Source: Ridgeia piscesae
Lineage: Eukaryota; Annelida; Polychaeta; Sabellida; Siboglinidae
Direction: 5' to 3'
DNA length: 64,000 nucleotides
Assembly (NCBI GenBank): GCA_025642075.2
Contig: JAODUO010000428.1
Location: 16,001-80,000, forward strand
Shown: positions 7,263-57,857 of the stretch, one piece after another
Position numbering within the stretch: position 1 is the first letter of the stretch
Layout: each line of letters begins with the position of its first letter
Program-made: the position numbers and the translations under genes
Notes under the pieces: generated by a model
Told to the model about the DNA's origin: nothing
The model's database searches: none
Seen by the model: the letters and a program-made list of their open reading frames with translations, nothing else

Positions 7263-7361
7263 GTGAGATGGCTGGAGCAGCAGGTAGTGAAACGAAGGGT
7301 TAAGAGGGACAGTCGATCGCGGATGTTCTCCGACCCCATGTGGCCACGCATGTGGTATCTG
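7263..7361 (+). CDS. furin: Furin-like exon 1 of window: end of prodomain and autocleavage site
   Basis: The exon encodes 33 residues starting VRWLEQQVVKRRVKRD, matching the furin VQWLEQQVAKRRTKRD segment. RVKR|D is the expected site where the prodomain is cut off during activation in the endoplasmic reticulum. After it comes a stretch ending FSDPMWPRMWYL, the conserved start of the mature enzyme. It is flanked by acceptor ttgcag and donor gtgagt and has phase 0 at both ends. The next exon in the protein lies 28 kb downstream. The preceding prodomain exon, expected to carry a GDYYHF-like motif, was not found in 1-7262, so the gene starts outside the window or in an exon I could not recognise. 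Confidence 0.93.
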
Positions 7362-8614: not shown

Positions 8615-11600
8615 CAGTCTCTTTCCCTCATTCCCTCTCTGTCCTGCCACAGTCACTTCTGTGATGTCTCCATCAGTCTCTTTCCCTCATTCCCCCTCTG
8701 TCCTGCCACAGTCACTTCTGTGATGTCTCCATCAGTCTCTTTCCCTCATTCCCTCTCTGTCCTGCCACAGTCACTTCTGTGATGTCTCCATCAGTCTCTT
8801 TCCCTCATTCCCTCTCTGTCCTGCCACAGTCACTTCTGTGATGTCTCCATCAGTCTCTTTCCCTCATTCCCTCTCTGTCCTGCCACAGTCACTTCTGTGA
8901 TGTCTCCATCAGTCTCTTTCCCTCATTCCCTCTCTGTCCTGCCACAGTCACTTCTGTGATGTCTCCATCAGTCTCTTTCCCTCATTCCCTCTCTGTCCTG
9001 CCACAGTCACTTCTGTGATGTCTCCATCGATCTCTTTCCCTCATTCCCTCTCTGTCCTGCCACAGTCACTTCTGTGATGTCTCCATCAGTCTCTTTCCCT
9101 CATTCCCCCTCTGTCCTGCCACAGTCACTTCTGTGATGTCTCCATCAGTCTCTTTCCCTCATTCCCCCTCTGTCCTGCCACAGTCACTTCTGTGATGTCT
9201 CCATCAGTCTCTTTCCCTCATTCCCCCTCTGTCCTGCCACAGTCACTTCTGTGATGTCTCCATCGATCTCTTTCCCTCATTCCCTCTCTGTCCTGCCACA
9301 GTCACTTCTGTGATGGCTCCATCAGTCTCTTTCCCTCATTCCCCCTCTGTCCTGCCACAGTCACTTCTGTGATGTCTCCATCAGTCTCTTTCCCTCATTC
9401 CCCCTCTGTCCTGCCACAGTCACTTCTGTGATGTCTCCATCGATCTCTTTCCCTCATTCCCTCTCTGTCCTGCCACAGTCACTTCTGTGATGTCTCCATC
9501 GGTCTCTTTCCCTCATTCCCCCTCTGTCCTGCCACAGTCACTTCTGTGATGTCTCCATCGGTCTCTTTCCCTCATTCCCCCTCTGTCCTGCCACAGTCAC
9601 TTCTGTGATGTCTCCATCAGTCTCTTTCCCTCATTCCCTCTCTGTCCTGCCACAGTCACTTCTGTGATGTCTCCATCAGTCTCTTTCCCTCATTCCCTCT
9701 CTGTCCTGCCACAGTCACTTCTGTGATGTCTCCATCAGTCTCTTTCCCTCATTCCCCCTCTGTCCTGCCACAGTCACTTCTGTGATGTCTCCATCGGTCT
9801 CTTTCCCTCATTCCCCCTCTGTCCTGCCACAGTCACTTCTGTGATGTCTCCATCAGTCTCTTTCCCTCATTCCCCCTCTGTCCTGCCACAGTCACTTCTG
9901 TGATGTCTCCATCGGTCTCTTTCCCTCATTCCCTCTCTGTCCTGCCACAGTCACTTCTGTGATGTCTCCATCAGTCTCTTTCCCTCATTCCCTCTCTGTC
10001 CTGCCACAGTCACTTCTGTGATGTCTCCATCAGTCTCTTTCCCTCATTCCCCCTCTGTCCTGCCACAGTCACTTCTGTGATGTCTCCATCAGTCTCTTTC
10101 CCTCATTCCCTCTCTGTCCTGCCACAGTCACTTCTGTGATGTCTCCATCGGTCTCTTTCCCTCATTCCCTCTCTGTCCTGCCACAGTCACTTCTGTGATG
10201 TCTCCATCGGTCTCTTTCCCTCATTCCCTCTCTGCCCTGCCACAGTCACTTCTGTGATGTCTCCATCAGTCTCTTTCCCTCATTCCCCCTCTGTCCTGCC
10301 ACAGTCACTTCTGTGATGTCTCCATCAGTCTCTTTCCCTCATTCCCTCTCTGTCCTGCCACAGTCACTTCTGTGATGTCTCCATCAGTCTCTTTCCCTCA
10401 TTCCCCTCTCTGTCCTGCCACAGTCACTTCTGTGATGTCTCCATCGGTCTCTTTCCCTCATTCCCTCTCTGTCCTGCCACAGTCACTTCTGTGATGTCTC
10501 CATCAGTCTCTTTCCCTCATTCCCTCTCTGTCCTGCCACAGTCACTTCTGTGATGTCTCCATCAGTCTCTTTCCCTCATTCCCTCTCTGTCCTGCCACAG
10601 TCACTTCTGTGATGTCTCCATCGGTCTCTTTCCCTCATTCCCTCTCTGTCCTGCCACAGTCACTACTGCAATGTCTCTATCAGTCTCTTTCCCTCATTCC
10701 CCCTCTGTCCTGCCACAGTCACTTCTGTGATGTCTCCATCAGTCTCTTTCCCTCATTCCCTCTCTGTCCTGCCACAGTCACTTCTGTGATGTCTCCATCG
10801 GTCTCTTTCCCTCATTCCCCCTCTGTCCTGCCACAGTCACTACTGCAATGTCTCTATCAGTCTCTTTCCCTCATTCCCCCTCTGTCCTGCCACAGTCACT
10901 TCTGTGATGTCTCCATCAGTCTCTTTCCCTCATTCCCCCTCTGTCCTGCCACAGTCACTTCTGTGATGTCTCCATCGGTCTCTTTCCCTCATTCCCTCTC
11001 TGTCCTGCCACAGTCACTACTGCAATGTCTCTATCAGTCTCTTTCCCTCATTCCCCCTCTGTCCTGCCACAGTCACTTCTGTGATGTCTCCATCAGTCTC
11101 TTTCCCTCATTCCCTCTCTGTCCTGCCACAGTCACTTCTGTGATGTCTCCATCGGTCTCTTTCCCTCATTCCCTCTCTGTCCTGCCACAGTCACTACTGC
11201 AATGTCTCTATCAGTCTCTTTCCCTCATTCCCTCTCTGTCCTGCCACAGTCACTTCTGTGATGTCTCCATCGGTCTCTTTCCCTCATTCCCTCTCTGTCC
11301 TGCCACAGTCACTTCTGTGATGTCTCCATCAGTCTCTTTCCCTCATTCCCTCTCTGTCCTGCCACAGTCACTTCTGTGATGTCTCCATCAGTCTCTTTCC
11401 CTCATTCCCCTCTGTCCTGCCACAGTCACTTCTGTGATGTCTCCATCAGGGCTCTTTCCCTCATTCCCTCTCTGTCCTGCCACAGTCACTTCTGTGATGT
11501 CTCCATCAGTCTCTTTCCCTCATTCCCCCTCTGTCCTGCCACAGTCACTTCTGTGATGTCTCCATCAGTCTCTTTCCCTCATTCCCTCTCTGTCCTGCCA

Positions 11601-14140
11601 CAGTCACTTCTGTGATGTCTCCATCAGTCTCTTTCCCTCATTCCCCCTCTGTCCTGCCACAGTCACTTCTGTGATGTCTCCATCAGTCTCTTTCCCTCAT
11701 TCCCACTCTGTCCTGCCACAGTCACTTCTGTGATGTCTCCATCAGTCTCTTTCCCTCATTCCCTCTCTGTCCTGCCACAGTCACTTCTGTGATGTCTCCA
11801 TCGGTCTCTTTCCCTCATTCCCTCTCTGTCCTGCCACAGTCACTTCTGTGATGTCTCCATCGGTCTCTTTCCCTCATTCCCTCTCTGTCCTGCCACAGTC
11901 ACTTCTGTGATGTCTCCATCGGTCTCTTTCCCTCATTCCCTCTCTGTCCTGCCACAGTCACTTCTGTGATGTCTCCATCAGTCTCTTTCCCTCATTCCCC
12001 CTCTGTCCTGCCACAGTCACTTCTGTGATGTCTCCATCGGTCTCTTTCCCTCATTCCCTCTCTGTCCTGCCACAGTCACTTCTGTGATGTCTCCATCAGT
12101 CTCTTTTCCCTCATTCCCCCTCTGTCCTGCCACAGTCACTTCTGTGATGTCTCCATCGGTCTCTTTCCCTCATTCCCTCTCTGTCCTGCCACAGTCACTT
12201 CTGTGATGTCTCCATCAGTCTCTTTCCCTCATTCCCCCTCTGTCCTGCCACAGTCACTTCTGTGATGTCTCCATCGGTCTCTTTCCCTCATTCCCTCTCT
12301 GTCCTGCCACAGTCACTTCTGTGATGTCTCCATCAGTCTCTTTCCCTCATTCCCTCTCTGTCCTGCCACAGTCACTTCTGTGATGTCTCTATCAGTCTCT
12401 TTCCCTCATTCCCTCTCTGTCCTGCCACAGTCACTTCTGTGATGTCTCCATCGGTCTCTTTCCCTCATTCCCTCTCTGTCCTGCCACAGTCACTTCTGTG
12501 ATGTCTCCATCGGTCTCTTTCCCTCATTCCCTCTCTGTCCTGCCACAGTCACTTCTGTGATGTCTCTATCAGTCTCTTTCCCTCATTCCCCCTCTGTCCT
12601 GCCACAGTCACTTCTGTGATGTCTCCATCAGTCTCTTTCCCTCATTCCCCCTCTGTCCTGCCACAGTCACTTCTGTGATGTCTCCATCGATCTCTTTCCC
12701 TCATTCCCTCTCTGTCCTGCCACAGTCACTTCTGTGATGTCTCCATCAGTCTCTTTCCCTCATTCCCCCTCTGTCCTGCCACAGTCACTTCTGTGATGTC
12801 TCCATCAGTCTCTTTCCCTCATTCCCCCTCTGTCCTGCCACAGTCACTTCTGTGATGTCTCCATCAGTCTCTTTCCCTCATTCCCTCTCTGTCCTGCCAC
12901 AGCCACTACTGTGATGTCTCCATCAGTCTCTTTCCCTCATTCCCCCTCTGTCCTGCCACAGTCACTTCTGTGATGTCTCCATCGGTCTCTTTCCCTCATT
13001 CCCTCTCTGCCCTGCCACAGTCACTTCTGTGATGTCTCCATCGGTCTCTTTCCCTCATTCCCTCTCTGTCCTGCCACAGTCACTTCTGTGATGTCTCCAT
13101 CGGTCTCTTTCCCTCATTCCCTCTCTGCCCTGCCACAGTCACTTCTGTGATGGCTCCATCAGTCTCTTTCCCTCATTCCCTCTCTGCCCTGCCACAGTCA
13201 CTTCTGTGATGTCTCCATCAGTCTCTTTCCCTCATTCCCTCTCTGCCCTGCCACAGTCACTTCTGTGATGTCTCCATCAGTCTCTTTCCCTCATTCCCTC
13301 TCTGCCCTGCCACAGTCACTTCTGTGATGTCTCCATCAGTCTCTTTCCCTCATTCCCTCTCTGCCCTGCCACAGTCACTTCTGTGATGTCTCCATCAGTC
13401 TCTTTCCCTCATTCCCTCTCTGCCCTGCCACAGTCACTTCTGTGATGTCTCCATCAGTCTCTTTCCCTCATTCCCTCTCTGCCCTGCCACAGTCACTTCT
13501 GTGATGTCTCCATCAGTCTCTTTCCCTCATTCCCTCTCTGCCCTGCCCAGTCACTTACTGTGATGTCTCCATCAGTCTCTTTCCCTCATTCCCTCTCTGC
13601 CCTGCCACAGTCACTTCTGTGATGTCTCCATCAGTCTCTTTCCCTCATTCCCTCTCTGCCCTGCCACAGTCACTTCTGTGATGTCTCCATCAGTCTCTTT
13701 CCCTCATTCCCTCTCTGCCCTGCCACAGTCACTTCTGTGATGTCTCCATCGGTCTCTTTCCCTCATTCCCTCTCTGCCCTGCCACAGTCACTTCTGTGAT
13801 GTCTCCATCAGTCTCTTTCCCTCATTCCCTCTCTGCCCTGCCACAGTCACTTCTGTGATGTCTCCATCAGTCTCTTTCCCTCATTCCCCCTCTGTCCTGC
13901 CACAGTCACTTCTGTGATGTCTCCATCAGTCTCTTTCCCTCATTCCCTCTCTGCCCTGCCACAGTCACTTCTGTGATGTCTCCATCAGTCTCTTTCCCTC
14001 ATTCCCTCTCTGTCCTTCCCAGTCACTTACTGCGATGTCTCTATCAGTCTCTTTCCCTCATTCCCCCTCTGTCCTTCCCAGTCACTTACTGCGATGTCTC
14101 TATCAGTCTCTTTCCCTCATTCCCTCTCTGTCCTGCCCCA
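8615..14140. repeat. 59-bp minisatellite, about 94 copies
   Basis: This is the largest array in the window. The unit is a pyrimidine tract (tctctttccctcattccctc), then ctgtcctgccacag, then tcacttctgtgatgtctccatcag. Variants are clustered: gccctgcc units dominate 13,000-13,980, and the cactactgcaatg variant recurs exactly every 177 bp at 10661, 10838, 11015 and 11192. Each unit looks like a strong 3' splice acceptor. It is intronic. Open frames across it are products of the repeat. Confidence 0.98.
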
Positions 14141-32539: not shown

Positions 32540-35500
32540 TCCGAACCGAGTAAACAGGCGTGGTTGTTGTGTTTTAGAACCGAGTAAACAGATGTGGTTG
32601 TTGTGTTTTAGAACCGAGTAAACAGATGTGGTTGTTGTGTTTTAGAACCGAGTAAACAGATGTGGTTGTTGTGTTGTAGAACCGAGTAAACAGATGTGGT
32701 TGTTGTGTTTTAGAACCGAGTAAACAGATGTGGTTGTTGTGTTTTAGAACCGAGTAAACAGATGTGGTTGTTGTGTTTTAGAACCGAGTAAACAGATGTG
32801 GTTGTTGTGTTTTAGAACTGAGTAAACAGATGTGGTTGTTGTGTTTTAGAACTGAGTAAACAGACGTGGTTGTTGTGTTTTAGAACCGAGTAAACAGACG
32901 TGGTTGTTGTGTTTTAGAACCAAGTAAACAGATGTGGTTGTTGTGTTTTAGAACCAAGTAAACAGATGTGGTTGTTGTGTTTTAGACCTGAGTAAACAGG
33001 CTTGGTTGTTGTGTTGTAGAACCAAGTAAACAGATGTGGTTGTTGTGTTTTAGACCTGAGTAAACAGACGTGGTTGTTGTGTTGTAGAACCGAGTAAACA
33101 GATGTGGTTGTGTTTTAGAACCAAGTAAACAGATGTGGTTGTTGTGTTTTAGAACCGAGTAAACAGACGTGGTTGTTGTGTTTTAGAACCGAGTAAACAG
33201 ACGTGGTTGTTGTGTTGTAGAACCAAGTAAACAGACGTGGTTGTTGTGTTTTAGAACCGAGTAAATAGATGTGGTTGTTGTGTTGTAGAACCGTGTAAAC
33301 AGATGTGATTGTTGTGTTTTAGAACTGTGTAAACAGACGTGGTTGTTGTGTTTTAGAACCGTGTAGGCAGATGTGGTTGTTGTGTTTTAGAAGTGTGTAA
33401 ACAGACATGGTTGTTGTATTTTAGAACTGAGTAAACAAATGTGGTTGTTGTGTTTTAAAACTGAGTAAACAGATGTGGTTGTTGTGTCTTAGAACTGAGT
33501 AAACAGATGTGGTTGTTGTGTCTTAGAACTGAGTAAACAGATGTGGTTGTTGTGTCTTAGAACTGAGTAAACAGATGTGGTTGTTGTGTTTTAGAACTGA
33601 GTAAACAGAGGTGGTTGTTGTGTTTTAGAACTGAGTAAACAGAGGTGGTTGTTGTGTTTTAGAACTGAGTAAACAGATGTTGTTGTGTTTTAGACCTGAG
33701 TAAACAGACGTGGTTGTTGTGTTTTAGAACTGAGTAAACAGATGTGGTTGTTGTGTTTTAGAACTGAGTAAACAGATGTGGTTGTTGTGTTTTAGAACTG
33801 AGTAAACAGACGTGGTTGTTGTGTTTTAGAACTGAGTAAACAGAGGTGGTTGTTGTGTTTTAGAACTGAGTAAACAGATGTTGTTGTGTTTTAGAACCGA
33901 GTAAACAGATGTGGTTGTTGTGTTTTAGAACTGAGTAAACAGATGTGGTTGTTGTGTTTTAGAACTGAGTAAACAGATGTGGTTGTTGTGTTTTAGAACT
34001 GAGTAAACAGATGTGGTTGTTGTGTTTTAGAACTGAGTAAACAGATGTGGTTGTTGTGTTTTAGAACTGAGTAAACAGAGGTGGTTGTTGTGTTTTAGAA
34101 CTGAGTAAACAGAGGTGGTTGTTGTGTTTTAGAACTGAGTAAACAGAGGTGGTTGTTGTGTTTTAGAACTGAGTAAACAGATGTGGTTGTTGTGTTTTAG
34201 AACTGAGTAAACAGATGTGGTTGTTGTGTTTTAGAACTGAGTAAACAGATGTGGTTGTTGTGTTTTAGAACTGAGTAAACAGAGGTGGTTGTTGTGTTTT
34301 AGAACTGAGTAAACAGAGGTGGTTGTTGTGTTTTAGAACTGAGTAAACAGATGTGGTTGTTGTGTTTTAGAACTGAGTAAACAGAGGTGGTTGTTGTGTT
34401 TTAGAACTGAGTAAACAGAGGTGGTTGTTGTGTTTTAGAACTGAGTAAACAGATGTGGTTGTGTTTTAGACCTGAGTAAACAGACGTGGTTGTTGTGTTT
34501 TAGAACTGAGTAAACAGAGGTGGTTGTTGTGTTTTAGAACTGAGTAAACAGAGGTGGTTGTTGTGTTTTAGAACTGAGTAAACAGAGGGTGGTTGTTGTG
34601 TTTTAGAACTGAGTAAACAGATGTGGTTGTTGTGTTTTAGAACTGAGTAAACAGAGTGGTTGTTGTGTTTTAGAACTGAGTAAACAGAGGGTTGTTGTGT
34701 TTTAGAACTGAGTAAACAGATGTGGTTGTTGTGTTTTAGAACTGAGTAAACAGAGGTGGTTGTTGTGTTTTAGAACTGAGTAAACAGAGGTGGTTGTTGT
34801 GTTTTAGAACTGAGTAAACAGACGTGGTTGTTGTGTTTTAGAACTGAGTAAACAGATGTGGTTGTTGTGTTTTAGAACTGAGTAAACAGATGTGGTTGTT
34901 GTGTTTTAGAACTGAGTAAACAGATGTGGTTGTTGTGTTTTAGAACTGAGTAAACAGAGGTGGTTGTTGTGTTTTAGAACTGAGTAAACAGATGTGGTTG
35001 TTGTGTTTTAGAACTGAGTAAACAGATGTGGTTGTTGTGTTTTAGAACTGAGTAAACAGATGTGGTTGTTGTGTTTTAGAACTGAGTAAACAGAGGTGGT
35101 TGTTGTGTTTTAGAACTGAGTAAACAGAGTGGTTGTGTTTTAGAAAACAGATGTGGTTGTTGTGTTTTAGAACTGAGTAAACAGATGTGGTTGTTGTGTT
35201 TTAGAACTGAGTAAACAGATGTGGTTGTTGTGTTTTAGAACTGAGTAAACAGATGTGGTTGTTGTGTTTTAGAACTGAGTAAACAGAGGTGGTTGTTGTG
35301 TTTTAGAACTGAGTAAACAGATGTGGTTGTTGTGTTTTAGAACTGAGTAAACAGATGTGGTTGTTGTGTTTTAGAACTGAGTAAACAGAGGTGGTTGTTG
35401 TGTTTTAGAACTGAGTAAACAGAGGTGGTTGTTGTGTTTTAGAACTGAGTAAACAGAGGTGGTTGTTGTGTTTTAGAACTGAGTAAACAGAGGTGGTTGT

Positions 35501-35578
35501 TGTGTTTTAGAACTGAGTAAACAGACGTGGTTGTTGTGTTTTAGAACTGAGTAAACAGACGTGGTTGTTGTGTTTTAG
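32540..35578. repeat. 34-bp minisatellite ending at the exon 2 acceptor, about 89 copies
   Basis: The unit is gtgttttagaactgagtaaa followed by cagatgtggttgtt. Each copy contains gttttag|AAC(C/T)G. The last copy is the true exon 2 acceptor, where AACCG continues into CGGCC. Left-hand copies keep AACCG like the exon; later copies mostly have AACTG. This is tandem amplification of the splice junction itself. Confidence 0.98.
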
Positions 35579-35707
35579 AACCGCGGCCACAGCCTCGACA
35601 TGAATGTCATCCCAGTGTGGAAGAAAGGTTACACAGGAAAGGGCATTGTTGTTACGATTCTCGATGACGGCATAGAGAAAAACCACCCAGATCTCAAGAG
35701 AAATTAT
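35579..35707 (+). CDS. furin: Furin-like exon 2: catalytic Asp
   Basis: The exon encodes 43 residues beginning [10 protein letters not shown] and containing [20 protein letters not shown], the subtilisin-family Asp motif. The catalytic Asp codon is at 35663-35665, and the second Asp of LDD is a substrate-binding residue in furin. Phase is 0 at both ends, acceptor gtgttttag, donor gtgagt. The acceptor is the final unit of a 3-kb 34-bp minisatellite whose units carry the same acceptor and the first five exon bases. A decayed copy of this exon's 3' end lies downstream near 36,380-36,530. Confidence 0.97.
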
Positions 35708-35804
35708 GTGAGTGTTGACCAACTGTGTGTTCCTGCTGACTTGTCCACTTCCTGTCCTCTCTTGCACAGCTGTACACCCTGTGACCCACTACCCTACTGT
35801 CAGA

Positions 35805-37290
35805 TAGATGGTAGTTTTGTGACATTAGGTAGACAGTAGTTTTGTGACATCAGGTAGACGGTAGTTTTGTGACATCAGGTTGACAGTAGTTTTGTGACAT
35901 CAGGTTGACGGTAGTTTTGTGACATCAGGTAGACAGTAGTTTTGTGACATCAGGTAGACGGTAGTTTTGTGACATCAGGTTGACGGTAGTTTTGTGACAT
36001 CAGGTAGACGGTAGTTTTGTGACATCAGGTTGACGGTAGTTTTGTGACATCAGGTTAACGGTAGTTTTGTGACATCAGGTTAACGGTAGTTTTGTGACAT
36101 CAGGTAGACGGTAGTTTTGTGACATCAGGTAGACAGTAGTTTTGTGACATCAGGTAGACGGTAGTTTTGTGACATCAGGTTGACGGTAGTTTTGTGACAT
36201 CAGGTAGACGTAGTTTTGTGACATCAGGTTGACGGTAGTTTTGTGACATCAGGTAGACAGTAGTTTTGTGACATCAGGTAGACGGTAGTTTTGTGACATC
36301 AGGTAGACAGTAGTTTTGTGACATCAGGTTGACAGTAGTTTTGTGACATCAGGTAGACGGTAGTTTTGTGACATCAGGTTAGGAGGGAAAAAACCCAGAT
36401 CTATTGAGAAATCAGGTTTAGGGGTTTTTACCAAACGGTGTTCCTGCAGACTGTCCCGGTTCGGTGTTTTTGCACAGCTGACAGCTTTGTGACATCAGGT
36501 AAACCTATTTTTGTCAGATAGACGGTAGTTTTGTGACATCAGGTAGACAGGGAGTTTTGTGACATCAGGTAGACGGTAGTTTTGTGACATCAGGTAGACT
36601 GTAGTTTTGTGACATCAGGTTGACAGTAGTTTTGTGACATCAGGTAGACAGGTAGTTTTGTGACATCAGGTTGACGGTAGTTTTGTGACATCAGGTAACG
36701 GTAGTTTTGTGACATCAGTTGGTAGTTTTGTGACATCAGGTTACGTAGTTTTTGACATCAGGTGACGTAGTTTTGTGACATCAGGTTACAGTAGTTTTGT
36801 GACATCAGGTTGACAGTAGTTTTGTGACATAGGTGACAGTAGTTTTGTGACATCAGGTAGCGTAGTTTTGTGACATCAGGTAGCCTGTAGTTTTGTGACA
36901 TCAGGTTGACAGTAGTTTTGTGACATCAGGTAGACAGTAGTTTTGTGACATCAGGTTGACAGTAGTTTTGTGACATCAGGTAGACGGTAGTTTTGTGACA
37001 TCAGGTAGACGGTAGTTTTGTGACATCAGGTTGACAGGTAGTTTTGTGACATCAGGTAGACAGTAGTTTTGTGACATCAGGTAGACAGTAGTTTTGTGAC
37101 ATCAGGTAGACAGTAGTTTTGTGACATCAGGTTGACGGTAGTTTTGTGACATCAGGTTGACAGGTAGTTTTGTGACATCAGGTAGACAGTAGTTTTGTGA
37201 CATCAGATAGACGGCAGTTTTGTGACATCAGATTGACAGTAGTTTTGTGACATCAGATAGACGGCAGTTTTGTGACATCAAGTAGAAAGT
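35805..37290. repeat. 25-bp minisatellite in intron 2, about 55 copies
   Basis: The unit is gtagttttgtgacatcaggt followed by agacg. It starts about 100 bp after exon 2. It is interrupted at about 36,378-36,530 by a decayed copy of the exon 2/intron 2 junction, after which many units show small deletions. Confidence 0.97.
36378..36530 (+). pseudogene. Decayed duplicate of the exon 2 3' end and donor region
   Basis: Words gaaaaaacccagatct, gagaaat, ggtgttcctgc, gactgtcc, ttgcacagctg and tgtcagatagacggtagttt appear in the same order as in 35,680-35,825 (gaaaaaccacccagatct, gagaaat, gtgttcctgc, gacttgtcc, ttgcacagctg, tgtcagatagatggtagttt). Many indels separate them. It is either a degraded segmental duplication or an assembly artefact from a noisy read. 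Confidence 0.75.
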
Positions 37291-37374
37291 ACATTTAGTG
37301 ACATCAATTAAGAATTTCAATATATTTATTTTCATTTTACCACAGCAAGTCTGGTGCAGGTTTTTATTTTAATT

Positions 37375-38150
37375 AGTTCCTTGAAATCAGAGTCACCATG
37401 CACTAAGCACTACTTGTAGGTGCCTTGAACTCAGAGTCACTATGCACTAAGCACTACTTGTAGGTGCCTTGAAGTCAGAGTCACCATGCACTAAGCACTA
37501 CTTGTATGGTGCCTTGAAGTCAGAGTCACCATGCACTAAGCACTACTTGTTGGTGCCTTGAAGTCAGAGTCACCATGCACTAAGCACTACTTGTTGGTGC
37601 CTTGAAGTCAGTCACCATGCACTAAGCACTACTTGTTGGTGCCTTGAAGTCAGAGTCACCATGCACTAAGCACTACTTGTTGGTGCCTTGAAGTCAGAGT
37701 CACCATGCACTAAACACTACTTGTTGGTGCCTTGAAGTCAGTCACCATGCACTAAGCACTACTTGTTGTGTGCTTGAAGTCAAAGTCACCATGCACTAAG
37801 CACTACTTGTTGGTGCCTTGAAGTCAGAGTCACCATGCACTAAGCACTACTTGTTGGTGCCTTGAAGTCACCATGCACTAAGCACTACTTGTTGGTGCCT
37901 TGAAGTCAGAGTCACCATGCACTAAGCACTACTTGTAGGTGCCTTGAACTCAGAGTCACCATGCACTAAGCACTACTTGTAGGTGCCTTGAAGTCAGAGT
38001 CACCATGCACTAAGCACTACTTGTTGGTGCCTTGAAGTCAGAGTCACCATGCACTAAGCACTACTTGTAGGTGCCTTGAAGTCAGAGTCACTATGCACTA
38101 AGCACTACTTGTAGGTGCCTTGAAGTCAAGAGTCACTATGCACTAAACAC
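37375..38150. repeat. 44-bp minisatellite in intron 2, about 17 copies
   Basis: The unit is cagagtcaccatgcactaag, cactacttgttggtgccttg and aagt. It ends about 20 bp before exon 3. Confidence 0.95.
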
Positions 38151-38169
38151 TGTAATTGTTGATCCTCAG

Positions 38170-38246
38170 GATCCTCAGGCAAGCTACGACATCAACAATG
38201 ATGATCCTGATCCTCAGCCTCGATATGATTTCAGCAACGAAAACAG
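38170..38246 (+). CDS. furin: Furin-like exon 3: DPDP/NENR segment
   Basis: The exon is 77 bp and encodes DPQASYDINNDDPDPQPRYD followed by FSNEN and two bases of Arg, matching furin DPGASFDVNDQDPDPQPRY. The acidic stretch belongs to the calcium- and substrate-binding surface of the catalytic domain. Start phase is 0 and end phase is 2. The acceptor is a direct duplication, gatcctcag followed by gatcctcag, so a second in-frame AG lies 9 nt downstream. Use of the first gives the family-typical DPQASYD. Donor is gtattt. Confidence 0.93.
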
Positions 38247-38542: not shown

Positions 38543-38631
38543 ACATGGTACGCGTTGTGCTGGAGAGGTGGCAGCACAAGCTGACAACCATATCTGCGGA
38601 GTCGGCATAGCATACGACGCAAGTATAGGAG
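38543..38631 (+). CDS. furin: Furin-like exon 4: catalytic His
   Basis: The exon is 89 bp and completes Arg, then encodes [20 protein letters not shown] and [10 protein letters not shown]. The catalytic His of HGTRC is at 38544-38546. The Cys of HGTRC and the Cys of NHICGV are conserved in furin-like convertases. Start phase is 2 and end phase is 1, both matching the neighbours. The acceptor is tccgttttcag and the donor gtacgt. The intron before it is only 296 bp and is one of the few free of tandem repeats. Confidence 0.96.
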
Positions 38632-39274: not shown

Positions 39275-40190
39275 GTTTACATTGTGACTTTGAAATGATA
39301 GTTGTGCATGTCATCTACATTGTGACTTTGAAATGGTAGTTGTTCATGTCATCTACATTGTGACTTTGAAATGATAGTTGTGCATGTCATCTACATTGTG
39401 ACTTTGAAATGGTAGTTGTTCATGTCATCTACATTGTGACTTTGAAATGATAGTTGTGCATGTCATCTACATTGTGACTTTGAAATGGTAGTTTTTCATG
39501 TCATCTACATTGTGACTTTGAAATGGTAGTTGTGTATGTGATCTACATTGTGACTTTGAAATGGTAGTTGTTCATGTCATCTACATTGTGACTTTGAAAT
39601 GATAGTTGTGCATGTCATCTACATTGTGACTTTGAAATGGTAGTTTTTCATGTCATCTACATTGTGACTTTGAAATGGTAGTTGTTCATGTCATTTACAT
39701 TGTGACCTTGAAATGGTAGTTGTTCATGTCATCTACAATGTAACTTTGAAATGGTAGTTGTGTGTGTCATTTACATTGTGACTTTGAAATGATAGTTGTG
39801 CATGTCATCTACATTGTAACTTTGAAATGGTAGTTGTTCATGTCATCTACATTGTGACTTTGAAATGGTAGTTGTGCATGTCATCTACATTGTGACTTTG
39901 AAATGGTAGTTGTTCATGTCATCTACATTGTGACTTTGAAATGATAGTTGTGCATGTCATCTACATTGTGACTTTGAAATGGTAGTTTTTCATGTCATCT
40001 ACATTGTGACTTTGAAATGGTAGTTGTTCATGTCATTTACATTGTGACTTTGAAATGGTAGTTGTTCATGTCATCTACAATGTGACTTTGAAATGGTAGT
40101 TGTTCGTGTCATCTACATTGTAACTTTGAAATGATAGTTGTGCATGTCATCTCCATTGTGACTTTGAAATGATAGTTGTGCGTGTGTCCA
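39275..40190. repeat. 38-bp minisatellite in intron 4, about 24 copies
   Basis: The unit is tgtgactttgaaatggtagt followed by tgttcatgtcatctacat. Two subtypes (ggtagttgttc, gatagttgtgc) alternate in 76-bp pairs in part of the array. It runs up to the exon 5 acceptor, whose upstream gatagttgtgc belongs to the last unit. Confidence 0.96.
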
Positions 40191-40194
40191 CCAG

Positions 40195-40367
40195 GTGTTC
40201 GCATGTTAGACGGGGATGTGACGGATGCCGTCGAAGCGCATTCACTCAGCCTACACCCACAGCACATAGACATATACAGCGCCTCCTGGGGGCCAGATGA
40301 TGACGGCAGGACTGTCGATGGGCCAGCCACGATGGCGAAAAAGGCGTTCTATGACGGGGTCGCAAAG
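40195..40367 (+). CDS. furin: Furin-like exon 5: VRMLDG and SASWGP segment
   Basis: The exon is 173 bp and encodes [20 protein letters not shown] followed by [19 protein letters not shown]. These are among the most conserved blocks in the family and form part of the substrate-binding cleft. The residues SLSLHPQHI resemble furin/PCSK4 more than PC2. Start phase is 1 and end phase 0. The acceptor tccaccag directly follows a 38-bp minisatellite, and the donor is gtagca. No stops or frameshifts are present. Confidence 0.96.
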
Positions 40368-40764
40368 GTAGCACAAATAACTAACAGCTGCTCGTTAACT
40401 ATTAAATCAAATATATTTTATTCATTCCAAATGCGAAATTAAAATGTAATGTTGAATAATTTACGTGTATGTATCACAATAATATATCACAGTTGTTGCA
40501 GAATGTTTACTGTGGTGCTGATACCGAAGAATTACCCATCCAGTGGTGCCACCTATTGAATAAAATTGGCATAAACTATACTCGCTATACTCACTAGGTG
40601 GCACTCTTACGCACGCACGCACGCACTCATACACACACACACACACACGTACAAACACATGCACACACATGCACATACACACACGTACACACACATACAC
40701 ACACGTACACACACGTTCACAAATACACAAACACAAAATGTTATCTTTGACATGTTTATTTAGT
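40368..40764. other. Intron 5 left part with CA-rich tract
   Basis: Unique sequence followed by interrupted CA repeat (about 40612-40735). Two CTCF-like motifs are present: 40546-40559 (minus, weak) and TCACTAGGTGGCAC at 40591-40604. Confidence 0.5.
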
Positions 40765-41396
40765 GACAGGTGTGCAATGAACTGTAGATGACATGTTTGT
40801 GCTGACAGGGGCATGGTGGACTATTGATGACGTGTTTATGCTGACAGGGATGCGGTGGACTATTGATAATGTGTTTGTGCTAGCTTGGGCACGGTGGACT
40901 GTTGATGACGTGTTTGTGCTGACACGTGCGCCGTTGACTGTTGGTGACGTGTTTGTGCTGACAGGGTCGCAATGGACTGTTGATAACGTGTTTGTGCTGA
41001 CAAGGTCGCAGTGGACTGTTGATGACGACGTGTTTGTGCTGACAGGGTCGCAGTGGACTGTTGGTGACGTGTTTGTGCTGACAGGGTCGCAGTGGACTGT
41101 TGATGACGTGTTTATGCTGACAGGGTTGCGGTGGACAGTTGATGACGTGTTTGTGCTGACAGGGGCACAGTTGACTGTTGATGACGTGTTTGTGCTGACA
41201 GGAACACGGTGGACTGTTGATGATTTGTTTGTGCTGACAGGGTCGGGTTGGACTGTTGATGACTTGTTTGTGCTGACAGGAATGCAGTGCACTGTTGGTG
41301 ACATGTTTGTGCTGACATGGTCACAGTGGACTGTTGATGACATGTTTGTGCTGACATGGTCACAGTGGACTGTTGATGACATCTTTGTGCTGACAG
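40765..41396. repeat. 39-bp minisatellite ending at the exon 6 acceptor, about 16 copies
   Basis: The unit is gtgtttgtgctgacagggtc followed by gcagtggactgttgatgac. It contains gctgacag|ggtcgcagtgga, a copy of the true junction gctgacag|GGTCGCGGTGGA. The last unit runs into exon 6. Confidence 0.97.
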
Positions 41397-41609
41397 GGTC
41401 GCGGTGGATTGGGGTCAATCTTCGTGTGGGCGTCAGGCAACGGTGGTCGCGATGGTGACAACTGCAACTGTGACGGTTACACCAACAGCATCTACACCCT
41501 GTCCATCAGCAGCGCGACGGAGGACGGTCACGTGCCGTGGTACTCGGAGGCGTGCTCGTCCACCCTCGCGACCACCTACAGCAGCGGGGCCAGCGGCGAG
41601 AAACAAGTG
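41397..41609 (+). CDS. furin: Furin-like exon 6: oxyanion-hole Asn
   Basis: The exon is 213 bp, 71 codons, phase 0 at both ends. It starts [17 protein letters not shown], with the oxyanion Asn codon at 41439-41441, and continues through [16 protein letters not shown] and [19 protein letters not shown]. Cysteines of CNC and EAC are conserved in furin. The acceptor gtgctgacag is the end of a 39-bp minisatellite whose units contain the acceptor and about 15 bases resembling the start of this exon. The donor is gtcagt, and a second minisatellite begins at once after it. Confidence 0.97.
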
Positions 41610-41611: not shown

Positions 41612-41912
41612 CAGTGGGGGGATCTCTCAAACGTGTAGCACATAGGGGGCGTCTCAGACGTGTAGCTCACAGGGGGCATATGTAACATGGTGCTCACAGG
41701 GGGCATCTGTGATATGGTGTTCACAGAGGGAATTTCCAATGTGTAGCTCACAGGGGGCATCCATAATATGGTACTCACAGGGGGCATCTATAACATGATG
41801 GGAGTGTTTCAAACGTGTAGCCCACAGGGGGCATCTCAAACGTGTAGCTCACAGGGGGCATCTCAAACGTGTAGCTCACAGGGGGCATCTATAACATGTA
41901 ACCCACAGGGAC
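41612..41912. repeat. 27-bp minisatellite beginning at the exon 6 donor, about 11 copies
   Basis: The unit is cgtgtagctcacagggggca followed by tctcaaa. The first unit follows the donor within a few bases. Confidence 0.9.
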
Positions 41913-42223: not shown

Positions 42224-42324
42224 ATCACGACGGATTTGCGGAAATCATGCACAGACACACACACCGGCACCTCCGCCAGTGCCCCAATGGCTGCTGGGAT
42301 ATGTGCTCTCACGTTACAGGCAAA
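42224..42324 (+). CDS. furin: Furin-like exon 7: catalytic Ser
   Basis: The exon is 101 bp and encodes ITTDLRKSCTDTHTGTSASA followed by PMAAGICALTLQA. The nucleophile is the Ser of GTSASAP, codon 42272-42274. The Cys of KSC pairs in furin with the EAC cysteine encoded by the preceding exon. Start phase 0, end phase 2. The acceptor is gtgtttcag. The donor gtgagttcgg is also the first part of a 40-bp repeat unit that fills the next 230 bp. Confidence 0.97.
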
Positions 42325-42326
42325 GT

Positions 42327-42553
42327 GAGTTCGGGCTGTTGTTTGATGGCAGGTGGCGTCATGTTTGAGTTCGGGCTGTTGTTTGATGCCAGGTGGTGTC
42401 ATGTTTGAGTTCAGGCTGTTGTTTGATACCAGATGGTGTCATGTTTGAGTTCGGGCTGTTGTTTGATGCCAGGTGGTGTCATGTTTGAGTTCGGGCTGTT
42501 GTTTGATGCCAGATGGTGTCATGTTTGAGTTCGGGCTGTTGTTTGATACCAGG
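42327..42553. repeat. 40-bp minisatellite beginning at the exon 7 donor, 5-6 copies
   Basis: The unit is gagttcgggctgttgtttga followed by tgccaggtggtgtcatgttt. Its first copy starts inside the donor gtgagttcgg, so later copies carry a tgagttcgg donor remnant. Confidence 0.93.
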
Positions 42554-42704
42554 TTACAGTGACTTATTTACCTAAGTTTATTTTAGTCCTGAATATATAT
42601 CGTGACATTTCTAGATGTTCTTTCTTAAAGGGTGAACAATGTATACAGACTCGCAGTTTGGGAAGTGGATTCTTGTTTGCTTTTAATAATTGACACGTTG
42701 CATA

Positions 42705-43328
42705 CGTGTGTGTCAGTCAGTTGGTTGACTGTATTTGTGTTGGTGACATGATGTATGTGTCAGAGTTGGTGACATGATGTGTGTGTCAGAGTTGGTGACA
42801 TGATGTGTGTGTCAGAGTTGGTGACATGATGTGTGTGTCAGAGTTGGTGACATGAAGTGTGTGTCAGAGTTGGTGACATGATGTGTGTGTCAGAGTTGGT
42901 GACATGATGTGTGTCAGAGTTGGTGACATGAAGTGTGTGTCAGAGTTGGTGACATGATGTGTGTCAGAGTTGGTGACATGAAGTGTGTCAGAGTTGGTGA
43001 CATGATGTGTGTCAGAGTTGGTGACATTAAGTGTGTGTCAGACTTGGTGACATGGAGTGTGTGTCAGAGTTGGTGACATTAAGTGTGTGACAGACTTGGT
43101 GACATGGAGTGTGTGTCAGAGTTGGTGACATGAAGTGTGTGTCAGACTTGGTGACATGGAGTGTGTGTCAGAGTTGGTGACATGAAGTGTGTGTCAGACT
43201 TGGTGACATGGAGTGTGTGTCAGAGTTGGTGACATGGAGTGTGTGTCAGAGTTGGTGACATGAAGTGTATGTCAGAGTTGGTGACATGAAGTGTGTGTCA
43301 GAGTTGGTGACATGAAGTGTGTGCTTCC
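42705..43328. repeat. 26-bp minisatellite ending at the exon 8 acceptor, about 24 copies
   Basis: The unit is gtgtgtcagagttggtgaca followed by tgaagt, with 24-bp variants lacking gt. The final gtgtgtg merges into the acceptor gtgcttccag. Confidence 0.95.
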
Positions 43329-43330: not shown

Positions 43331-43434
43331 TCCCCGACTCACATGGCGAGACATGCAGCACATCGTTGTCATGACGGCACGACCCGAAGGTCTCAAAAGC
43401 ACTGATTGGATAACCAATGGGGTCGGTCGAAAAG
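43331..43434 (+). CDS. furin: Furin-like exon 8: LTWRDMQH segment
   Basis: The exon is 104 bp and encodes, after completing Asn, PRLTWRDMQHIVVMTARPEG and then TDWITNGVGRK. This matches furin NLTWRDMQHLVV and NDWATNGVGRK, the C-terminal helices of the catalytic domain. Start phase 2, end phase 1. The acceptor gtgcttccag immediately follows a 26-bp minisatellite. The donor is gtcagt. Confidence 0.95.
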
Positions 43435-44000
43435 GTCAGTCACTCACTAAGCTGTTTATTCAGTTCAATAAAGTTAGAAATTCCAGGCACAATGCTAAAT
43501 GAAAGTACACAACAATATGAAATCATACATGTTTTATGTGTGCAAGGATACAAGTAATTCTTCAACTACTTAATGCTGATTGTGCAGTTAATTATGTTAG
43601 TTTGTGAGTGATTTTTCTCATCTGCAGTCTCTGTGTCTGACCAGTCACTGACCAGTCACTGACCAGTCACTGAACTATCACAGTTGTGGTGTGGGTTTAT
43701 GCAGTAAAAGGACAATGAACAATTATTTAGTTAAATGGTTGTTTGTATAGTCAATTTAATTTTTTTGCTAAATGCAAGTCTTGTGAAACATGTTAGTTTT
43801 TATATAGATTTTATGTGGTTTTAGTAAAATATATAGTTTGTAAACAATTTACTTAGAAGCAAATTACTTGTGAGTAGAGATTTATCACGTTACTTTCACT
43901 TAAAAAGTGTGTGCACTGTTAATGGATTTAATCTGTCCTTGAGCCGCCATCAACCCGTTGTCATGGCAACGTTGACGTGGTATGACTGGTGTACTTGCAG
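43435..44000. other. Intron 8, unique
   Basis: AT-rich unique intron with a short gaccagtcact repeat (43637-43672) and an X-box near its end. Confidence 0.6.
43957..43970. promoter_or_regulatory. RFX X-box-like site upstream of exon 9
   Basis: GTTGTCATGGCAAC matches the X-box consensus with a single departure from a perfect palindrome. It is intronic, 30 bp before the exon 9 acceptor. Confidence 0.3.
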
Positions 44001-44118
44001 TAAGCCACTCCTTCGGCTATGGTGTCATGGATGCCGCGGCGATGGTCGACATGGCGAAAAACTGGACCAACGTGCCTACACAACACCGCTGTCTCATTCA
44101 CTACAAGGGCGCCGCCAA
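44001..44118 (+). CDS. furin: Furin-like exon 9: catalytic domain end, P domain start
   Basis: The exon is 118 bp and encodes VSHSFGYGVMDAAAMVDMAK followed by NWTNVPTQHRCLIHYKGAA. It corresponds to furin VSHSYGYGLLDAGAMVALAQNW. Start phase 1, end phase 2. The acceptor is gtacttgcag and the donor gtgagt. A near-perfect RFX X-box palindrome sits about 30 bp upstream. A 3-kb 74-bp array follows about 110 bp downstream. Confidence 0.94.
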
Positions 44119-44227: not shown

Positions 44228-47200
44228 CAACATCAGGCAGTTGGTGTTGTTGTCACGGTGAAGACAAACGTCTTTTCTGTGGCCACACCAACTTTATGGA
44301 ACTCTCCCTATCAGTTGGTGTTGTTGTCACGGTGAAGACAAACACCTTCTCTGTAGCCGCACCAACTTTATGGAACTCTCCCTATCAGTTGGTGTTGTTG
44401 TCACGGTGAAGACAAACACCTTCTCTGTAGCCGCACCAACTTTATGGAACTCTCCCTATCAGTTGGTGTTGTCACGGTGAAGACAAACACCTTCTCTGTA
44501 GCCGCACCAACTTTATGGAACTCTCCCTATCAGTTGGTGTTGTTGTCACGGTGAAGACAAACGCCTTCTCTGTAGCCGCACCAACTTTATGGAACTCTCC
44601 CTATCAGTTGGTGTTGTTGTCACGGTGAAGACAAACGCCTTCTCTGTGGCCGCACCAACTTTATGGAACTCTCCCTATCAGTTGGTGTTGTTGTCACGGT
44701 GAAGACAAACACCTTCTCTGTAGCCGCACCAACTTTATGGAACTCTCCCTATCAGTTGGTGTTGTTGTCACGGTGAAGACAAACGCCTTCTCTGTGGCCG
44801 CACCAACTTTATGGAACTCTCCCTATCAGTTGGTGTTGTTGTCACGGTGAAGACAAACGCCTTCTCTGTAGCCGCACCAACTTTATGGAACTCTCCCTAT
44901 CAGTTGGTGTTGTTGTCACGGTGAAGACAAACACCTTCTCTGTAGCCGCACCAACTTTATGGAACTCTCCCTATCAGTTGGTGTTGTTGTCACGGTGAAG
45001 ACAAACACCTTCTCTGTGGCCGCACCAACTTTATGGAACTCTCCCTATCAGTTGGTGTTGTTGTCACGGTGAAGACAAACGCCTTCTCTGTGGCCGCACC
45101 AACTTTATGGAACTCTCCCTATCAGTTGGTGTTGTTGTCACGGTGAAGACAAACGCCTTCTCTGTGGCCGCACCAACTTTATGGAACTCTCCCTATCAGT
45201 TGGTGTTGTTGTCACGGTGAAGACAAACGCCTTCTCTGTGGCCGCACCAACTTTATGGAACTCTCCCTATCAGTTGGTGTTGTTGTCACGGTGAAGACAA
45301 ACGCCTTCTCTGTGGCCGCACCAACTTTATGGAACTCTCCCTATCAGTTGGTGTTGTTGTCACGGTGAAGACAAACGCCTTCTCTGTGGCCGCACCAACT
45401 TTATGGAACTCTCCCTATCAGTTGGTGTTGTTGTCACGGTGAAGACAAACACCTTCTCTGTGGCCGCACCAACTTTATGGAACTCTCCCTATCAGTTGGT
45501 GTTGTTGTCACGGTGAAGACAAACGCCTTCTCTGTGGCCGCACCAACTTTATGGAACTCTCCCTATCAGTTGGTGTTGTCACGGTGAAGACAAACACCTT
45601 CTCTGTAGCCGCACCAACTTTATGGAACTCTCCCTATCAGTTGGTGTTGTTGTCACGGTGAAGACAAACACCTTCTCTGTAGCCGCACCAACTTTATGGA
45701 ACTCTCCCTATCAGTTGGTGTTGTCACGGTGAAGACAAACACCTTCTCTGTAGCCGCACCAACTTTATGGAACTCTCCCTATCAGTTGGTGTTGTTGTCA
45801 CGGTGAAGACAAACGCCTTCTCTGTGGCCGCACCAACTTTATGGAACTCTCCCTATCAGTTGGTGTTGTTGTCACGGTGAAGACAAACACCTTCTCTGTA
45901 GCCGCACCAACTTTATGGAACTCTCCCTATCAGTTGGTGTTGTTGTCACGGTGAAGACAAACACCTTCTCTGTGGCCGCACCAACTTTATGGAACTCTCC
46001 CTATCAGTTGGTGTTGTTGTCACGGTGAAGACAAACGCCTTCTCTGTGGCCGCACCAACTTTATGGAACTCTCCCTATCAGTTGGTGTTGTTGTCACGGT
46101 GAAGACAAACACCTTCTCTGTAGCCGCACCAACTTTATGGAACTCTCCCTATCAGTTGGTGTTGTTGTCACGGTGAAGACAAACGCCTTCTCTGTGGCCG
46201 CACCAACTTTATGGAACTCTCCCTATCAGTTGGTGTTGTTGTCACGGTGAAGACAAACGCCTTCTCTGTGCCGCACCAACTTTATGGAACTCTCCCTATC
46301 AGTTGGTGTTGTTGTCACGGTGAAGACAAACGCCTTCTCTGTGGCCGCACCAACTTTATGGAACTCTCCCTATCAGTTGGTGTTGTTGTCACGGTGAAGA
46401 CAAACACCTTCTCTGTAGCCGCACCAACTTTATGGAACTCTCCCTATCAGTTGGTGTTGTTGTCACGGTGAAGACAAACGCCTTCTCTGTGGCCGCACCA
46501 ACTTTATGGAACTCTCCCTATCAGTTGGTGTTGTTGTCACGGTGAAGACAAACGCCTTCTCTGTGGCCGCACCAACTTTATGGAACTCTCCCTATCAGTT
46601 GGTGTTGTTGTCACGGTGAAGACAAACGCCTTCTCTGTGGCCGCACCAACTTTATGGAACTCTCCCTATCAGTTGGTGTTGTTGTCACGGTGAAGACAAA
46701 CACCTTCTCTGTGGCCGCACCAACTTTATGGAACTCTCCCTATCAGTTGGTGTTGTTGTCACGGTGAAGACAAACGCCTTCTCTGTGGCCGCACCAACTT
46801 TATGGAACTCTCCCTATCAGTTGGTGTTGTTGTCACGGTGAAGACAAACGCCTTCTCTGTGGCCGCACCAACTTTATGGAACTCTCCCTATCAGTTGGTG
46901 TTGTTGTCACGGTGAAGACAAACGCCTTCTCTGTGGCAGCACCAACTTTATGGAACTCTCCCTATCAGTTGGTGTTGTTGCACGGTGAAGACAAACACCT
47001 TCTCTGTGGCGCCCTTTGGAACTCTCCGTATCATTAGGGGTTGTCACTGACTGACAAACGCCATTTTTCTGTGGCAGTCAACTTATGGAACTCTCCCTAT
47101 CAGTTGGTGTTGTTTCCACGTGAAGACAAACGCCCTTCTGTGGCACACCAACTTTATGGAACTCTCCATATCAGTTGGTGTTGTCACGTGAAGACAAACC

Positions 47201-47250
47201 CTTCTTTTGTGGCCACCAACTTTATGGAACTCTCCTATCAGTTGTGTGTT
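44228..47250. repeat. 74-bp minisatellite in intron 9, about 40 copies
   Basis: The unit starts cagttggtgttgttgtcacg, passes through gacaaacgccttctctgtgg and ends caactttatggaactctccctat. AGTTGGTG and CACCAACT form 8-bp arms about 41 bp apart in every unit, with a nested TTGTC/GACAA. Copies are nearly identical until 46,970, after which the last units are heavily indel-damaged. Confidence 0.97.
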
Positions 47251-47334
47251 GCCACTTGGTGGACCCTATAGTCTTACTCTGTGGACCAACTTTATGACTG
47301 TCGTCCTTCAGTTGCTTGTGTCACCTGCAAGTAC

Positions 47335-50654: not shown

Positions 50655-50819
50655 AAATATTCCTCCGAACCACCGTGCACGTGTTGCCTTGACAACGGAC
50701 GGTTGCCGTGGTAACAGCAACCATGTGCTCTTCCTCGAGCATGTGCAAGCCATCATATCGCTGACAGGATCACGACGGGGCGAATTACAAATATTCCTTG
50801 TATCACCCCAAGGAACTAG
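50655..50819 (+). CDS. furin: Furin-like exon 10: P domain with RRGEL
   Basis: The exon is 165 bp and encodes a beta-sandwich part of the P (homo-B) domain needed for folding and calcium/pH dependence. Visible blocks are VALTTDGCRGNSNHVLFLEH and SRRGELQIFLVSPQGT. Furin and PACE4 have RRGDL at the second place, so Asp is replaced by Glu here. Start phase 2, end phase 2. The acceptor is ttttacag and the donor gtaagt. A 3.2-kb 22-bp array ends about 105 bp upstream. Two X-box-like motifs lie within the coding sequence at 50683-50696 and 50702-50715. Confidence 0.94.
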
Positions 50820-51549: not shown

Positions 51550-52091
51550 TTAATGAAGTATTTTAATACATTTGCAACATGAAGACAGCTCACAGGAATG
51601 TGAAATTTGGCACAGTTGTAGACCACACCAATGTGCACAGTGTGGTGAAATTTCACCTTTGCAGCTCTTATAGTTCCAGAGATATCCCTTTTGAACATTC
51701 TGCACCAAATCGAAAATCGACAGTAAAATGTTTACAGAATCTAGCCATGTGTTCTGTCTGTTTCTGACACAGCACGACACAGTCACTGCTTCTTTTGTCA
51801 TTTTTTGATGTGCCAATGGCAGCAGCCACTTCACGTGATGGGAAGACTGTTGCAGCAGTGGACTGGTGCGGCTTCGGATGTGTCGGCTTTGCTCTGGACA
51901 GTTGATGTCCGCAGACTTCATTGATCTTGTAAAACAAACACTATTGGTGGATGTTGAGGCATGGGGGTGATAGTTCTGTAGGTAGAGCAGCAGGAGGGTA
52001 GACTCCTCGCCTGTGCTGCAAATCGAACCGCTGTTTGTCATCGGATGGCTGCTTCCTGGCGAACACGCCAGTGGGTTCTTCAGACGTAAAC
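51550..52091 (-). other. Possible second exon or open frame of a minus-strand unit
   Basis: The minus strand has a consensus acceptor (tttgtatcag) at 52092 followed by an open frame to 51550. A second frame, starting FTSEEPTGVFARKQPSDDKQ, is interrupted by one TAG. A matching donor (gagg|gtaagt, near 52690) could link it in phase to the relic upstream. I recognise no family. It may be an exon of a nested non-coding or decayed gene. Confidence 0.2.
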
Positions 52092-53928: not shown

Positions 53929-54065
53929 GTCGTCACTCCTGGCACGACGGTCGCGAGACTCGTCATCAGAGGGCTTCAACAACTGGGCCTTCATGACAAC
54001 ACACAACTGGGGGGAGTTGTCAGTCGGCACCTGGAACCTTGAGATTGTCACGGCCGCGACCTCGT
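53929..54065 (+). CDS. furin: Furin-like exon 11: P domain core
   Basis: The exon is 137 bp. It completes Arg, then encodes SSLLARRSRDSSSEGFNNWA, FMTTHNWGE and GTWNLEIVTAATS. This matches furin STLLAARPHDYSADGFNDWAFMTTHSWDE and the GEWVLEI strand. Start phase 2 and end phase 1. The acceptor is gtcacag and the donor gtgagt. The final strand of the P domain is supplied by either of two downstream exons that both accept phase 1. Confidence 0.95.
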
Positions 54066-55594: not shown

Positions 55595-55909
55595 TTGTCC
55601 CCCACACCAGACTCCAGTCGTGGCGTCTAGTTCTACTTGGCACAGACCACCACCCCTACCACCCCACCACCACTAGCACCACCACTAGCACCACCACCGC
55701 CCGCGCCACCAGCCCCCCGGCACCCCCCGCCTCCCGCCGCGGTGGGCGTGGTGGTGGCAGCGTCAGCGGTGGCGCAAAATCGCTCTTCGATCTAAAAAGG
55801 TTGCCTAGCAACGTTGTTGTAATGGGGCCATGTCCGCGGCCCGCGGGGGCCACTCAACTGGCCCACCGGACGCGACCCCCTCCACCCCGACCTCCACCGC
55901 GACCTCCAG
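55595..55909 (+). CDS. furin: Alternative furin-like exon 12a: P-domain last strand plus Thr/Pro-rich region
   Basis: After acceptor gtccgttgcag the frame continues from exon 11 as FVPHTRLQSWRLVLLGTDHH. It fits the last P-domain strand (PACE4 has KLKEWSLILYGTAEHPYH). It is followed by a Thr-rich run, Arg/Gly-rich residues, then SLFDLKRLPSN and a Pro/Arg-rich end. High GC ends abruptly near 55909, where cag|gcaaga could be a GC-AG donor with phase 1. If no splice occurs there, the frame stays open to a stop at about 56142 through low-complexity, probably non-coding sequence. Its phases would be 1-1, so it could also be inserted before exon 12b in frame. The strand match and phase support the exon; its 3' end is uncertain. 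Confidence 0.62.
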
Positions 55910-57531: not shown

Positions 57532-57857
57532 CAACTCTCAAGACCTGGTCACTGATGATGTACGGGACGGCCTCGGACCCTCACAACGGCTACCACTTGA
57601 CGAAGCAAAAGAAATACCAAGGTATGCCCACTAACTGTGCGTCGTCAATGACAACGACCCACACCAGGGGTAGTGGTGTGAGTGCCACGAGTCCGCGGTC
57701 CACGGCAACCGCAGCCACGTTCGGCGGGCTCATGCTCATGTCAACGGTCGACATGACAGGCTCACACCTCATGTGGCTGCTTGTAATCAGTGCCTCCACG
57801 GTGCTCCTACAGTGTCTCTGCTGCGGTGACATCAGCATGTTTCCCATAGCAACGTGA
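57532..57857 (+). CDS. furin: Furin-like exon 12b: P-domain last strand, Ser/Thr stalk, transmembrane end, stop
   Basis: After acceptor gtgtttgcag the exon continues in phase 1 as S-TLKTWSLMMYGTASDPHNGY, matching furin TLTKFTLVLYGTA. It then reads through a Ser/Thr-rich stretch of about 40 residues, a likely O-glycosylated stalk. A 19-residue hydrophobic segment LMWLLVISASTVLLQCLCC follows, then a 10-residue tail GDISMFPIAT and TGA. This is the layout of a type I membrane convertase with a very short cytosolic tail and no Cys-rich region. A possible internal donor (gtatgc at 57622) could shorten the exon, but codon use stays coding-like to the stop. Confidence 0.82.

Follow-up and report, generated by a model that had tools for sequence, protein, structure and literature searches.

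Ninety tandem units carrying candidate 3' splice sites before the catalytic-Asp exon of a furin gene in Ridgeia piscesae: a probable mirage-type minisatellite

Furin Gene and Exon 2 Junction

A furin (proprotein convertase) gene of the deep-sea vent tubeworm Ridgeia piscesae contains a minisatellite of 90 units of 34 bp, and the last of these units is, as predicted from translation and homology, the 3' splice site of the exon that codes for the catalytic Asp. With a probability of about 0.7, the array is of the mirage type, i.e., a near-neutral tandem expansion of a 34-nt acceptor module that would be tolerated as the exon selects the copy adjacent to it. The window analysed is the whole stretch of 64,000 bp, and all coordinates are positions in this window. 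The exons of the gene and the array are as follows:

7263..7361, + strand, exon 1 (window label), ends with MWYL, phase 0, donor GTGAGT, followed by an intron of 28.2 kb
32543..35581, + strand, 34-bp minisatellite of 90 units, candidate 3' splice site modules (Tandem Repeats Finder and unit split)
35545..35578, + strand, last array unit, predicted genuine acceptor of exon 2, AG at 35577-35578
35579..35707, + strand, exon 2 (window label), 129 nt, phase 0/0, contains ILDDGIE, donor GTGAGT at 35708
38170..38246, + strand, exon 3
38543..38631, + strand, exon 4
40195..40367, + strand, exon 5
41397..41609, + strand, exon 6
42224..42324, + strand, exon 7
43331..43434, + strand, exon 8
44001..44118, + strand, exon 9
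50655..50819, + strand, exon 10
53929..54065, + strand, exon 11 (P domain)

The translation of exon 2 matches furin chains in PDB, and the Pfam families PF00082 (subtilase S8) and PF01483 (P domain) were above cut-off in P0001. The 11 exons were picked by hand with GT-AG borders and with homology as guide. Together they form a single open frame with a product of 468 aa, the translation of which has the motifs DDG, HGTR, and GTSAS, which we take to be the catalytic Asp, His, and Ser motifs of furin. Over 91% of its length, this product is 100% identical to a Ridgeia piscesae (annelid family Siboglinidae) protein of 651 aa, which has the subtilase S8 and P domains. The database protein starts at a Met within exon 2, and its record therefore does not include the upstream exon. 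One more exon begins at 57532. No prodomain exons were found in the 64-kb window, so the designation "exon 2" in the first-pass annotation of this DNA can be kept as a window label only.

As the upstream exon ends at 7361, the array represents the 3' end of the 28.2-kb intron. The predicted joining of the acceptor at 35579 to this exon is supported by protein homology and by the open frame. Of 120 aligned homologs, 115 cover both sides of the joint WYL|NRG between exons 1 and 2; 113 of them lack an insertion at this place, and WYL|NR is read in 76.

Two further places in the gene could give rise to protein variants. The acceptor of exon 3 lies within a 9-bp tandem duplication, GATCCTCAG|GATCCTCAG (38161-38178), and with two AGs 9 nt apart, the residues DPQ could be added or dropped. 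For the same end of the P domain there are two candidate exons, at 55606-55695 and 57532-57623 (TRLQSWRLVLLGTDHHP and TLKTWSLMMYGTASDPHNGYH), which are perhaps alternative exons; the database protein has the second.

Structure of the 34-bp Array

Tandem Repeats Finder recognized 32543-35581 as a minisatellite with period 34, 90.1 copies, 94% matches, and a score of 5243. When the array was cut at the acceptor, 90 units were obtained, 80 of them exactly 34 bp long, with 28 distinct sequences, in good agreement with the array of 3 kb and about 89 units annotated previously. The typical unit consists of a possible branch region, a GU-rich tract, and mostly TTTTAG|AAC; the form TTTTAG|A fits the acceptor consensus TTTYAGR reported for earthworm metallothionein (PMC12783039). 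Unit 90 stops at 35578 and is directly followed by AACCGCGGCCACAGC, the start of the exon.

The 89 upstream copies are very similar to the genuine site, as the first-pass annotation had also proposed for a series of near-identical 3' splice sites directly before the exon. The AG is kept in 88 of them. Identity to the genuine site is found in 79, 75, 72, and 10 copies when the final 12, 15, 18, and 20 bases of the intron, respectively, are compared. If the comparison is extended to the first three exon bases, identity is found in 69 copies (-18..+3) or in 10 (-20..+3), and 15 copies share AACCG at +1..+5. Internal copies match the exon 2 junction over 30 nt (25 of the intron and 5 of the exon) with a score of 60, while 200 shuffles reached 20 at most.

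The units are not evenly distributed along the array. Those starting with AACC, as the exon does, number 19 among units 1-30 and 1 among units 31-90, while for AACT the numbers are 7 and 56, respectively. The gradient from AACCG far from the exon to AACTG near it, noted already at first reading, is thus real. The difference between the two forms is a CpG transition, and the match with the exon suggests AACCG as the ancestral form. Mean pairwise identity of the units is 0.909 in units 1-30, 0.962 in 31-60, and 0.957 in 61-90, i.e., the array is divergent on one side only, and the higher identity would indicate a more recent expansion of the exon-proximal part. The consensus of the early copies and the exon start are alike in 10 of the first 14 bases, so a resemblance beyond AACCG is weak but possible.

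The core of the unit, gttgttgtgttttag, has no occurrence outside the array on either strand of the window, with up to two mismatches allowed. A dispersed repeat was rejected as the source of the unit, the core being confined to the array within the window. GC skew in the direction of transcription is 0.57 and 0.67 in the two 1-kb steps of 33001-35000, the strongest positive values of the window, and might favour R-loops and repeat instability.

With exon 1 in phase 0, splicing to any of the 89 upstream copies would put a stop codon in frame ahead of the exon 2 donor. The stop is the second codon in 66 of the 89, and in 48 of the 50 nearest to the exon. This suggests from the reading frame that only the last copy can yield a working protein, and mis-spliced RNA would go to decay. 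A single C-to-T change that spread by homogenisation is probably the source of the stop behind most copies, and the stops are therefore not independent evidence of selection.

Origin and Effect of the Array

In the favoured reading, a 34-bp stretch comprising the intron end and at least the first five exon bases would have been duplicated in tandem, and ordinary array turnover would then have expanded the duplicate to 90 units. Each copy could be a 3' splice site module, in which a possible branch region, cTGAGTAAAC, located about 24-29 nt ahead of the AG, is followed by a GU-rich tract and TTTTAG. Since the local sequence cannot separate the genuine site from 72 of the 89 decoys, the deciding information is most likely located in the exon and its donor at 35708; the genuine site would most likely be picked through exon definition, as the sole copy abutting a real exon with this donor. 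Exon definition would fix the branch point in the last unit, and scanning for the first AG that is not bypassed would then stop at the last AG. Scanning is described as picking the first AG but skipping any that lie closer than about 12-15 nt to the branch point (PMC1431707), and under this rule the choice of branch point dictates which copy is spliced. Its position in the array is uncertain, because no full YTNAY motif is present in the last 45 intron bases, where TGA and TAA cores are located at -31 and -27. Splicing slips would be removed via the in-frame stops, which are present in the sequence, and presumably by transcript decay. Such an array may be tolerated as nearly neutral, and other splice sites of the gene have probably undergone a similar process. 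In accordance with a neutral array, the two AG columns are about as constant as most others, with 0 and 1 variant units among 80, and no sign of selection against decoy AGs was found in the 34-bp array, where the decoys are neither decayed nor specially conserved at AG. Neutral origin alone does not account for the concentration of arrays at splice sites. A concealment of the decoys by RNA structure was also considered and rejected, as the predicted fold of 35443-35610 is no better than that of shuffled sequences (z -0.71, equalled or surpassed by 45 of 200 shuffles).

The array could also influence the output of the gene. It is doubtful that several copies are in use, with mis-splicing and nonsense-mediated decay lowering furin output and array length tuning expression. 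The 69 decoys identical over -18..+3, all leading to stops, speak for such use, but amphioxus mirages are reported not to disturb splicing, though cryptic use is allowed for (PMC3087553, PMC3902484). A role in which array length and GU-rich repeats titrate splicing factors and so set the rate of exon 2 skipping is improbable. Exon 2 has 129 nt and phase 0/0, and its skipping would drop 43 residues in frame, including the catalytic Asp, with dead furin as the predicted product. The 34-bp unit is GU-rich and may offer binding sites of CELF/TDP-43 type. A minisatellite of Caenorhabditis elegans is reported as over-represented near alternative splicing regions (PMC4039745), and human boundary repeats are reported to alter splicing (PMC2812944), but the columns of the tubeworm repeat are without special constraint.

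An assembly artefact, with wrong copy number or placement of the array, is very improbable. The published Ridgeia assembly is described as made of Illumina reads with a contig N50 of 10.42 kb (PMC9921365), which would allow for such an error, but the 64 kb contain no N, the 28 unit types form an ordered gradient, and the frame at the junction is intact. Recursive splicing, with the repeats as ratchet sites that remove the 28-kb intron stepwise, can practically be set aside. The intron is very long and rich in acceptors, as such a process would have it, but AG followed directly by GT is the hallmark of ratchet sites, and GT follows the acceptor in none of the units, which are moreover only 34 bp long. 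On this ground, recursive splicing was rejected.

Comparison with Known Boundary Repeats

The mirage-type reading places the array among known objects, as the kind is already represented by amphioxus mirages and human boundary minisatellites. Mirages are described as minisatellite-like duplications of intron-exon boundaries in amphioxus genes for globin, Adh3, troponin C, and PGBD5 (PMC3087553). The tubeworm array resembles these (Adh3, globins BflGb6 and BflGb9, troponin C, and PGBD5) as a boundary-spanning tandem repeat with duplicated splice signals. Its copies span the boundary at 35579 over 30 nt and nearly all carry AG, and copies of a second array span that at 41397 over 40 nt. By its anatomy, the 34-bp array is classed as a probable mirage and probably works like one. 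Its 34-bp unit falls within the range of 10-72 bp given for Adh3 (PMC3087553, PMC3902484). It differs from the amphioxus cases in occurring in an annelid and in having 90 units, compared to 6 and 3 units of 150-160 bp in two BflGb6 haplotypes. Amphioxus mirages are reported at both 5' and 3' boundaries. In the tubeworm, arrays adjoin the donors 41610 and 42325, and their copies lack the complete donor junction. Mirages are said to leave splicing undisturbed, as Adh3 data and globin RT-PCR suggest, and somatic length change was reported at Adh3 (PMC3087553, PMC3902484). The copies could serve as cryptic sites and give aberrant transcripts, according to the amphioxus paper (PMC3087553).

Human minisatellites with units of about 30 bp and about 4 copies are reported at exon-intron boundaries of recently duplicated genes, where they can create novel introns and alternative splicing, with 27 intron modifications (PMC2812944). 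The tubeworm array is similar in unit length and location, but its 90 copies lie within an existing intron. The copy number is far above the globin and human cases compared. Tandem duplication that takes in splice signals is likewise involved in intron gain from AG/GT proto-splice sites, as in the potato RdRp case (PMC4974935) and the Rogers model. This model and the human tandem arrays of Zhuo 2007 (cited in PMC3087553) share with the tubeworm the tandem duplication of splice signals, but no new intron was seen in the tubeworm. In NAGNAG or tandem acceptors, AGs also compete at one intron end (PMC3250501), but with two sites 3 nt apart, while in the tubeworm the spacing is 34 nt, and there are 89 decoys. 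Intron 1 of earthworm metallothionein contains large minisatellite-class arrays in an annelid intron, but these are not described in the source portion cited as copies of a splice site (PMC12783039), as the tubeworm units are. Among the matches listed, drawn from open-licence literature, there was no annelid case of a mirage-type repeat. With this array, repeats of the mirage type are represented in an annelid, with 90 units and in the gene of a conserved protease, and the question of how one 3' splice site is chosen among dozens of locally identical ones becomes directly testable.

Arrays at Other Splice Sites

About half of the window (32,356 of 64,000 bp) is tandem repeat when arrays with a score of at least 100 and a period of at least 10 are counted. 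Besides the 34-bp array, the following arrays are near exons of the gene:

35800..37306, + strand, 25-bp array in intron 2, 92 bp past the donor (Tandem Repeats Finder)
37379..38151, + strand, 44-bp array, ends 18 bp short of the exon 3 acceptor (38170), junction copy not significant (p ~0.055)
39278..40179, + strand, 38-bp array, ends 15 bp short of the exon 5 acceptor (40195), copies without full junction
40764..41408, + strand, 39-bp array, second true acceptor array, with the acceptor TGACAG and some 15 bp of exon 6 in its unit
41625..41910, + strand, 27-bp array, starts 15 bp inside donor 41610, copies without full donor junction
42326..42554, + strand, 40-bp array, starts at +2 of donor 42325, unit begins with TGAGTT, copies without complete donor junction
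42739..43323, + strand, 26-bp array, ends 7 bp short of the exon 8 acceptor (43331), copies without full junction

Of 22 splice sites, 7 have the end of an array with a score of at least 100 no more than 20 bp away, where 1.63 are expected (p ~0.0007), and with a score of at least 50, the number is 8, where 1.8 are expected (p ~0.0005); these values come from one gene, in which the pattern was noticed in the same data, and from four distances tried. The other distances gave 3 of 22 sites at 5 bp (p 0.008-0.01), 4 of 22 at 10 bp (p 0.006-0.01), and 7-9 of 22 at 30 bp (p 0.0002-0.0015). For each threshold, 4000 permutations were computed, with each array kept within its intron. The start of exon 12 was taken there as 57528, which is 4 bp early, and the 20-bp result is unaffected by this.

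Nine abutting junctions and six control junctions were compared with their arrays. Only two of the nine, 35579 and 41397, are spanned by array copies; at the remaining ones, the matched stretch is mostly the end of the array itself or lies off the junction. A complete junction is absent from five of the seven abutting arrays with a score of at least 100, and in the one before 38170 not even the likeness to the intron end is significant. Five of the six controls revealed no resemblance beyond shuffles, the exception being donor 40368, which resembles the array of its intron (p ~0.01).

Copies of the intron-5 array (40764..41408) align across the 41397 junction over 40 nt. After the first split, 11 of 16 splits start with CAG, the last being genuine, so CAG is present in 10 of the 15 upstream copies. 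It is absent in five, including the two nearest to the exon, which are too few to judge selection. Exon 5 resembles this array at its end, which reads GGGGTCGCAAAG and has GGTCGC in common with GGTCGCGG, the start of exon 6 (40350-41404). In 35708-37320, 52 CAGGT sites similar to decoy donors (CAG|GT) were counted; as the intron-2 array is rich in them, exon 2 is flanked by decoy acceptors on one side and decoy-donor-like sites on the other.

The clustering of arrays within one gene suggests a link between splice junctions and the start points of minisatellites. It may be put forward, tentatively, that minisatellites in this genome arise preferentially at splice junctions, that many genes have long arrays of complete splice-site modules beside the site in use, and that the exon side alone decides splicing. 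If true, exon definition would be put to an extreme natural test by the furin array, and this in a phylum remote from amphioxus.

Two other long arrays are present in the window. The 59-bp array at 8615-14137 has 93.6 copies and a unit with the acceptor-like CCTCTCTGTCCTGCCACAG, far from any exon found; a similar event has perhaps left it behind. The ORF at 43837, which extends into the 74-bp array at 44238-47251, and that at 51553 had no match in Pfam. The translation of the 74-bp array includes FSVAAPTLWNSP, which seems to us reminiscent of the tail of a LINE reverse transcriptase.
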